Below are positions 2,174-32,012 of a DNA stretch of 64,000 bases, in pieces. The position numbers and the translations under genes are program-made. Position 1 is the first letter of the stretch. Each line of letters begins with the position of its first letter. The notes under the pieces are model-generated. The model ran no database searches, was not told where the DNA came from, and saw only the letters and a program-made list of their open reading frames with translations. Location of the stretch: the NCBI RefSeq assembly GCF_002250625.1, contig NZ_NMVQ01000046.1:1-64000 (forward strand), given 5' to 3'. The DNA comes from Enemella dayhoffiae (GTDB taxonomy: Bacteria; Actinomycetota; Actinomycetes; Propionibacteriales; Propionibacteriaceae).

Positions 2174-4054
2174 ATGGCCCCGAGCATTCCCAGCGCCGGC
2201 CGGACCGATCCGGCCATCATCCGGAACTTCTGCATCATCGCCCACATAGACCACGGCAAGTCGACCCTGGCCGATCGGATGCTGCAGCTGACCGGGCTGG
2301 TAGACGACCGAACGATGCGGGCGCAATACCTGGACCGGATGGACATCGAGCGCGAGCGCGGGATCACCATCAAGTCCCAGGCCGTGCGCATGCCGTGGAT
2401 TGTGTCTGGGGGGTCTCCGGGGGGCGAAGCCCCCCGGACGTTTGTTCTCAATATGATCGACACCCCCGGTCACGTCGACTTCACCTACGAGGTGTCGCGC
2501 TCGCTGGAGGCGTGCGAGGGAGCCGTGCTGCTGGTCGACGCGGCGCAGGGGATCGAGGCGCAGACGCTGGCCAACCTCTACCTCGCCCTGGACGCCGATC
2601 TCGAGATCATCCCGGTGCTGAACAAGATCGACCTGCCCAGCGCCAACCCCGAGAAGTACGCCGCCGAGCTGGCCGGCATCATCGGTTGCGATCCCGGCGA
2701 CGTGCTCAAGGTGAGCGCCAAGACCGGCGAGGGCGTACGCGAGCTGCTCGACCACATCGTCGACAAGATTCCCGCCCCGGTCGGTGACGCCGACGCCCCG
2801 GCCCGGGCGCTGATCTTCGACTCGGTCTATGACACCTATCGCGGCGTGGTCACCTATGTCCGGGTGGTCGACGGGGAACTCAGCCACCGCGAGAAGATCC
2901 TGATGATGTCCACCCGCGCCACCCACGAGGTGCTCGAGGTGGGGGTGATCTCCCCCGAGCCGATGAAGGTGGACCGGCTCGGCGTGGGGGAGACCGGCTA
3001 TCTGATCACCGGGGTGAAGGAGGTCCGCCAGTCCCGGGTCGGCGACACGGTCACCTCCGCGAACAACCCCGCCTCGGAGATGCTGTCGGGCTACAAGCAC
3101 CCGAACCCGATGGTCTATTCCGGGTTGTTCCCGATCGACGCGAACGACTTCACCGAGCTTCGCGAGGCGCTCGACAAGCTGCAGCTGAACGACGCCGCGC
3201 TCACCTACGAACCGGAGACCTCGACCGCACTCGGCTTCGGGTTCCGCGTGGGATTTCTCGGCCTGCTGCACATGGAGATCGTGCGCGAGCGGTTGGAGCG
3301 CGAGTTCAACCTGGATCTGATCTCCACCGCCCCCAACGTCGTCTATCGGATCGTGATGGAGGACGGCACCGAGCACGTGGTCACCAACCCCAGCGAATAT
3401 CCCAACAACGGCAAGATCGCCGAGGTGCACGAGCCGGTCACCAAGGCGACCATCCTGGCCCCGGCCGAATACATCGGCACGATTCTTGAACTGTGCCAGC
3501 AGAAGCGCGGCATCCAGCTCGGCCTGGACTACCTGTCCGAGGACCGGGTCGAGATCCGCTATCAGCTGCCCCTGGCCGAGATCGTGTTCGACTTCTTCGA
3601 CGCGCTGAAGTCGCGCACCAAGGGCTACGCCTCGCTCGACTATGACGAGGCCGGGGAGCAGGTGTCCGATCTGGTCAAGGTGGACATCCTGCTGCACGGC
3701 GAGCCGGTGGACGCGTTCTCGGCGATCGTGCACAAGGACAAGGCGTACGCCTATGGCGTCGCGATGGCGGGCAAACTCAAGGAACTCATTCCCAGGCAGC
3801 AGTTCGAGGTGCCGATCCAGGCCGCGATCGGCGCCCGGGTGATCGCCCGCGAAACCATCCGCGCGATCCGCAAGGACGTGCTCGCCAAGTGCTATGGCGG
3901 CGACATCTCCCGCAAGCGAAAGCTGCTGGAGAAGCAGAAGGAGGGCAAGAAGCGGATGAAGGTCGTCGGCCGCGTCGAGGTCCCCCAGGAGGCGTTCGTC
4001 GCCGCGCTCTCCACCGGCGAGGGCGGCAAGGACAAGGGCGAGAAGAAGGGCTGA
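2174..4054 (+). CDS. lepA: Elongation factor 4 (LepA), back-translocating ribosomal GTPase
   Basis: 626 residues from ATG 2174 (AGGAAG lies just upstream). G1 AHIDHGKST lies near residue 25, the G3 box DTPGH is at 96-100 and G4 NKID follows. The LepA-specific C-terminal domain (from about residue 490) ends in the usual Lys-rich tail. LepA acts on stalled or mistranslocated ribosomes. Unusual here: residues about 77-90, just before G3, are replaced by [12 protein letters not shown] encoded by a perfect palindrome, making the protein a few residues longer than typical in a loop close to switch II. Flanking codons (ATT, TCT, TTT, GTT, AAT) are AT-ending, unlike the rest of the gene. Confidence 0.97.
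2416..2438. repeat. Perfect palindromic element inserted in frame in lepA
   Basis: TCCGGGGGGC (2416-2425), loop GAA, GCCCCCCGGA (2429-2438): a 10-bp perfect stem with a 3-nt loop. It is translated as part of SPGGEAPR between the effector region and the G3 box of LepA. It resembles REP-like palindromes usually confined to intergenic DNA. Confidence 0.85.
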
Positions 4055-29555: not shown

Positions 29556-31020
<1,465 letters not shown>

Positions 31021-31122
31021 CCGGGCGAAGGCGACGCGGCCACCGGCCCAGGCTGGCCACGTGACCCGGGCCAGGGCGAGACCGAACGGTCGAGGACTCA
31101 GGACCGCATTGCCTGACGCGTC

Positions 31123-31250
31123 GACCCAGCGCGACTCCGCGTACCGAGTGTCACCTCGCGCGCCGAACGTCACTTCGCGGACCACCGGTGGCACGCGAGG
31201 TGGTGTTGGGTACGCGAGGTGAGCTTCGGTACGCGAGGTGGCCTCGGCCG
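31123..31250. repeat. Mirror-symmetric array of six 19-bp units around CCACCGGTGG
   Basis: The 332-bp gap between argG and lutC (31021-31352) holds no gene. It contains three 19-bp units pointing right (31194-31212, 31213-31231, 31232-31250), each starting CGCGAGGTG. Three 19-bp units point left (31161-31179, 31142-31160, 31123-31141). They are placed exactly symmetrically about a central CCACCGGTGG palindrome (31182-31191). Outward consensus is CGCGAGGTGAC.TTCGGTA. Matches between mirrored units run from about 10/19 (outer) to 16/19 (middle). Function unknown. Confidence 0.85.
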
Positions 31251-31352
31251 GCTCAGCCACCGGGCGTCGACAGGCGCAGCCACCGGATGGGCAGACTCAG
31301 CCGACGGGGGCCAGGGGGTTCCCGCCGTGGAAGTGGGTGGCTCGCGGGGCGC

Positions 31353-32012
31353 TCACCCGGCGAGGATGACCACCAGGGTGCGGGGCCCGTGGACACCCTC
31401 GACCCGGTCCAGCTCGATGTCGGAGGTGGCGCTCGGACCGCTGATCCAGGTGAGCGGCAGGCCGGCGGCCACCGATTCAGCCAACCGCGCCACGGCCTCC
31501 GGCACGTCGGACACCACCTGATCGGCGCCCACCACACACACGTGCACGTCCGGCACCAGGGTCAGCGCCCGCCGTCCCTGATCGGGGCGATGGTCGAGGA
31601 CCAGGGTGCCGGTCTCGGCGATCCCGACGGCCGCCGCCGAAACCACCGCGTCGATCCGGTCCAGCTCACTCGCGTCGAGTGTCACGGCCCCGGAAGGGTC
31701 CAACACCAGGTCGAACCCGGACTCCCGCAGCTGCTGCTGCCACACGACATCCAGTCCCTCAGGTGCGACAACACGGCGTGCCCCGGTGGCACTCAGCGCG
31801 GCCGTCACCTGCCCCGCCACCTCGTCGGCGGAGCAGCGGACGACCCGGGCGCGATAGTCCTCGACCCGTTCGGTGAACCGGTCCCAGATGTCGGGCATGG
31901 GTGTGCTGCGGCCAAACTGCCACGGCACCTCGACGTCCTGGGTCGGATCGCCGCCGCCGACATCGGCGATGGCTCGGCGTACCCGGCCCAGAATCTCCTC
32001 ACGGGCGTTCAT
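31353..32012 (-). CDS. lutC: Lactate utilisation protein C (LUD domain)
   Basis: 219 residues. LUD-domain features: an N-terminal helix NAREEILGRVRRAI, VVAPEGLDVVW and the late GIAETGTLVLDH...LTLVPDVHVCVV, ending SATSDIELDRVEGVHGPRTLVVIL. With LutA and LutB it forms the iron-sulfur L-lactate oxidation complex. Its start overlaps the lutB stop by 4 bp (ATGA), the last gene of a four-gene chain in which every junction has the same overlap. Confidence 0.95.
   Translation of the reverse strand: MNAREEILGRVRRAIADVGGGDPTQDVEVPWQFGRSTPMPDIWDRFTERVEDYRARVVRCSADEVAGQVTAALSATGARRVVAPEGLDVVWQQQLRESGFDLVLDPSGAVTLDASELDRIDAVVSAAAVGIAETGTLVLDHRPDQGRRALTLVPDVHVCVVGADQVVSDVPEAVARLAESVAAGLPLTWISGPSATSDIELDRVEGVHGPRTLVVILAG

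Follow-up and report, generated by a model that had tools for sequence, protein, structure and literature searches.

A 19-bp-spaced palindromic array between argG and lutC in Enemella dayhoffiae matches the repeats that bracket a putative AbiEi/PD-(D/E)XK-like gene

In the 64,000-nucleotide stretch of Enemella dayhoffiae DNA that we analysed, hereafter the window, an array of six short cores lying between two convergent genes probably derives, as one of its scattered and non-autonomous copies, from the palindromic array cognate to another gene of this species, P0001, and would belong to a REP/RAYT-like system driven by a protein of a nuclease family. The neighbours that converge on the array are argG, encoding argininosuccinate synthase (29602-31020, forward strand; Pfam PF00764/PF20979), and a lutC-like LUD-domain gene (31353-32012, reverse strand; Pfam PF02589), and no predicted gene covers the array itself. 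Its dyad axis falls between 31186 and 31187, inside the centre CCACCGGTGG (31182-31191), as read from the sequence and an alignment of the two arms. Moving outwards from this centre, the left arm carries on the reverse strand the cores CGCGAAGTGA (31170-31179), CGCGAGGTGA (31151-31160) and CGCGGAGTCG (31132-31141), and the right arm carries on the forward strand CGCGAGGTGG (31194-31203), CGCGAGGTGA (31213-31222) and again CGCGAGGTGG (31232-31241). The arm alignment located these cores together with a pattern search, or with the sequence itself for the outermost left one, and places them in mirror symmetry, three per arm, with every step being 19 bp, just as an earlier note on this DNA had described when it reported six units of exact period in a place without a gene. 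Each unit combines a variable spacer of 9 bp with a conserved core of about 10 bp, CGCGARGTGR. Complementarity between the two arms (31131-31186 and 31187-31242) is 75%. When up to three mismatches were allowed, the 19-mer had four matches in the 64-kb window, all of them in the array, where 0.28 would be expected by chance. Folding, which the note had proposed to predict, gave a strong hairpin on both strands (z of -7.35 on the forward and -5.57 on the reverse strand). The array also abuts a degenerate hairpin repeat of the GGCTTCGACAGGCTCAGCC type (31240-31262, forward strand), which is likewise found beside the array downstream of P0001. This second hairpin family, comprising GGCTTCGACAGGCTCAGCC and GGCTTCGACTCGCTCGTTCCTCGCTCGCTCAGCC, adjoins many arrays (besides the window site, it was seen beside the array at 3174 of the P0001 locus L024 and at L027, L029, L030 and L083) and also occurs within the argG-lutC gap of Enemella evansiae.

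The flanks of the window array bear on its origin. Over 189 columns, positions 31099-31286 (forward strand) show 90% identity to DNA at the 3' end of P0001 (L024), where the matched stretch begins 18 nt ahead of the end of the stop codon and reaches 170 nt past it. Because this match extends across the stop, the window holds the last five codons and the stop codon of P0001, the array downstream of it and the start of the adjoining hairpin repeat. The codon remnant (31099-31116, forward strand, read from the sequence) is CAG GAC CGC ATT GCC TGA in the window and CAG AAC CGC AGC GCC TGA in P0001, and the next most similar pairs of arrays have little in common outside the array itself. The claim in the earlier note that the array was not a recent duplication is therefore contradicted, since it is a close copy of a segment downstream of a nuclease-like gene. 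The segment may have been copied in as a larger piece, or it may be what is left of a second gene cassette that was formerly present and lost.

P0001 encodes a protein of 305 aa, lies between two copies of the array (G000:C7:43887-44804, G000 being the genome of E. dayhoffiae itself) and is the sole gene of this species that is bracketed on both sides by window-type arrays, as is its orthologue in E. evansiae. The two orthologues are 63% identical, versus 93% for argG in the same species pair. We read P0001 as an AbiEi-like N-terminal domain fused to a putative C-terminal PD-(D/E)XK-like domain. The N-terminus is matched by PADLOC AbiEi models, and the C-terminus contains E190, D223, E234-x-D-G and K240-Y, with E190, D223, E234 and K240 being invariant in 24 homologues. 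The Pfam matches of the C-terminus to DUF559 and MTES_1575 were both sub-threshold, so the PD-(D/E)XK assignment is our own reading of the motif pattern; a single-sequence structure prediction of the protein reached a pLDDT of 36. The arrangement D...ExDG..K and the weak profile matches are what P0001 shares with the DUF559/MTES_1575 PD-(D/E)XK families, from which it differs in falling below the Pfam thresholds, in being fused to an AbiEi-like domain and in being bracketed by cognate arrays. Two paralogues look disrupted: in E. dayhoffiae, the match at L128 (G000:C11:26494-27399) has one internal TGA with both flanking arrays intact and is possibly a decaying copy, and L139/L141 (G004:C1:277353-278053) is split over two reading frames, with near-identical palindromes still bracketing it.

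The association of gene and repeat extends well beyond Enemella. Of the 117 genomes of Propionibacteriaceae searched, 75 carry homologues of P0001, in many cases several of them, and when the 350 bp upstream and downstream of 47 homologue loci were compared, a gene-specific repeat was common to both flanks in 41 of them and undetectable in the other 6. None of the 45 control genes from the window, compared over 400-bp flanks, gave such a result (highest score 31; the 99th percentile for mismatched loci was 34). These flank repeats have an internal period of 19 bp in 32 flanks and of 20 bp in 12, with 0.27 expected per shift. The 19-bp period is thus kept while the sequence changes completely, and it characterises the class as a whole. 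Its recurrence in unrelated sequences across the family bears out the earlier suggestion that symmetry and period are under constraint. Furthermore, 30 of the 38 shared flank sequences form hairpins with z below -3, as against 1 of 47 in-gene controls. Over all pairs, repeat similarity and protein similarity were uncorrelated (Mantel rho -0.14, p 0.99), although several of the pairs with the greatest repeat sharing also rank near the top in protein similarity (ranks 1, 2, 3, 5 and 9 of 741). Among three distant homologues from Tsukamurella and Collinsella, two have repeats on both sides. The Collinsella repeat has a different geometry, with inverted pairs 43 and 37-38 bp apart, and occurs at 21 places in one 900-kb record. 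At the Collinsella aerofaciens locus (L172, NZ_OY725717.1:410745-414395) eight repeat sites lie upstream and four downstream of the distant homologue, in strictly alternating orientation, which resembles a BIME-like variant with 43- and 37-38-bp spacing in another bacterial class.

Beyond the bracketed gene, window-type arrays are dispersed. The E. dayhoffiae genome contains 13 symmetric arrays, including that of the window, and a few weaker ones of two units. A pattern of paired cores at the fixed 19-bp period, with at most two mismatches, gave 33 + 39 = 72 matches, against 3 + 1 = 4 for the reversed control, and all 26 arms of the 13 arrays have GG as their innermost pair of bases. In the comparison genome, E. 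evansiae NML 020265 (G002), about 11 arrays follow the same design with a diverged sequence; their centre is TGCATGCA, and each arm has two units. Since copies recur both elsewhere in this genome and in a related species, as a search of the kind that the earlier note had called for revealed, the array is not the single-locus expansion that the note had allowed for. The exact four-core pattern, searched among 84,980 species genomes, was matched elsewhere in E. evansiae only, so the array sequence is genus-specific; in addition, a different repeat of E. evansiae, of the L131 type, has two flanking and two remote copies there and none in E. dayhoffiae. By eye, exactly one of the two arms starts with a TCC centre in about 10 of 13 E. 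dayhoffiae arrays and in 8 of 10 arrays of E. evansiae, so that the elements look oriented. The arrays had no Rfam match above the gathering score, and searches of phages and of viral contigs gave no match.

Arrays that bracket the nuclease-like gene are the only ones found in the same place in both Enemella species. At all 8 syntenic sites without this gene (argG-lutC and seven others) the flanking genes are adjacent in E. evansiae and the array is absent, and neither a target-site duplication nor a clean empty site was seen at the sites compared. This difference may reflect gain in one lineage or loss in the other, which two species do not tell apart.

The position and the folding of the arrays could suggest that they are bidirectional transcription terminators, or stabilisers of mRNA 3' ends, acting as RNA hairpins. 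Their potential to form hairpins is strong, and the genes around them converge in 8 of 13 cases in E. dayhoffiae (p 0.015) and in 14 of 23 when E. evansiae is included (p 0.0015), against a background of at most 0.29, which is itself small and derived from heuristic gene calls. We nevertheless regard this explanation as unlikely, because in arrays of the window type the mirror arms show no covariation, being no more alike within than between arrays, and G-U wobble pairs show no bias towards one strand; because the arrays are missing at every syntenic site compared; and because they also lie upstream of nuclease-like genes, with one Collinsella copy in a divergent gap. The absence of covariation and of wobble bias favours a geometry of protein sites over an RNA stem for this type of array, and an RNA stem under selection is ruled against by these two tests. 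Of the two options offered by the earlier note, binding geometry or an RNA/DNA cruciform, the former has thus gained support, and a selected RNA stem has not. In some other gene-specific arrays, for example L128 and L158, the spacers pair as well. The enrichment between convergent 3' ends fits with tolerance of insertion there or with a side role in termination, and termination may be a side effect of the arrays.

Another possibility is that the AbiEi-like protein regulates transcription and the arrays are its operators, those flanking the gene serving autoregulation and the scattered ones forming a regulon. The N-terminal domain makes this conceivable, since AbiEi_4 is matched by 19 of 24 homologues and since the promoters of AbiEi and Rv2827c contain several inverted repeats to which these proteins bind, Rv2827c having four such sites upstream of its own gene (PMC7319586). 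On the other hand, the arrays are found downstream of the gene as well as upstream, and the dispersed ones are located mainly at 3' ends, in many cases where two genes converge. Moreover, array positions are not conserved, and the invariant nuclease-type residues would be left to explain, so we find this operator reading quite improbable. P0001 resembles the AbiE type IV toxin-antitoxin system (AbiEi, Rv2827c) in its related N-terminal domain, whose relatives bind several inverted repeats by their own gene (PMC7319586), and differs from it in its C-terminal nuclease-like domain and in having repeats on both sides of the gene and dispersed. No AbiEii toxin gene was noticed among the annotated neighbours of three Tsukamurella and Collinsella loci from a plasmid collection, nor in the Pfam matches at L024 and L086.

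We hypothesise instead that the protein itself spreads the arrays. The AbiEi-type N-terminal domain would bind the 10-bp cores, with several copies of the protein sitting side by side in 19-bp steps along each arm of the palindrome, and the C-terminal PD-(D/E)XK-type domain would nick or cut within the array or close to it. When the cut DNA is repaired or copied, copies of the array could then come to lie at new intergenic sites, mostly at the 3' ends of genes. Binding, cleavage, copying and protein-driven spread are all steps that we infer, and the spread of an array by a nuclease-like protein would parallel that of REPs by RAYT.

In REP/RAYT systems, a fast-evolving gene sits between two palindromic repeats, which are gene-specific and have dispersed, non-autonomous intergenic copies (PMC2817692, PMC8049555; for the fast evolution of rayt genes, PMC2817692). 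The likeness lies in an enzyme gene, here encoding a different enzyme, that lies, at most homologue loci, between two copies of a palindromic repeat specific to it, in the dispersal of the Enemella repeats in intergenic DNA, where they vary between relatives, and in the fast evolution of P0001. In contrast, P0001 is AbiEi-like and PD-(D/E)XK-like, not a Y1/HUH tyrosine transposase; the consensus of the 26 E. dayhoffiae arms has neither the GTAG/CGTC tag nor the 20-40 bp palindrome size; the arrays measure about 70-125 bp and have 2-4 cores on each arm at a 19-20-bp period; and the copy numbers seen are about 4-21, compared with hundreds for REPs. Since the Y1 (HUH) tyrosine transposase (PF01797) was detected in none of five Enemella genomes, with control genomes positive, and since protein and repeat are both unrelated, the system is not a member of REP/RAYT, and that candidate assignment is ruled out. 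The same absence bears on the idea that an unrelated transposase moves the arrays as ordinary MITEs or REPs, with the nuclease-like gene as one of their hosts. Presence or absence between species and species-specific amplification would be expected of such elements, but this account fails to predict that each of the 41 bracketed homologues has its own, different repeat, and we consider it very improbable. The statement in the earlier note that the array fits no class of repeat holds for those named classes that could be tested.

The REP-like way of life is known already; the players, both protein and repeat, are not, and we found no earlier description of this pairing of gene and repeat in the open-access literature, subscription journals being outside the scope of the search. 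We judge it about evenly balanced whether Actinomycetota harbour mobile repeat systems of a new class, in which each AbiEi/PD-(D/E)XK-like gene recognises, spreads and is bracketed by its own array with 19-20-bp spacing, in convergence with REP/RAYT and unrelated to it. Proteins of the P0001 type, which are frequent among Propionibacteriaceae and also present in other Actinomycetota, are labelled only as 'AbiEi family antitoxin domain-containing' or 'hypothetical', and the gene-specific DNA partner on both sides gives each of them a predicted and directly testable target sequence. If the protein does spread the arrays, a mode of living like that of REP/RAYT would have arisen in a nuclease lineage unrelated to the known REP transposases, and an origin would be at hand for a group of so far unexplained palindromes between the genes of these bacteria.
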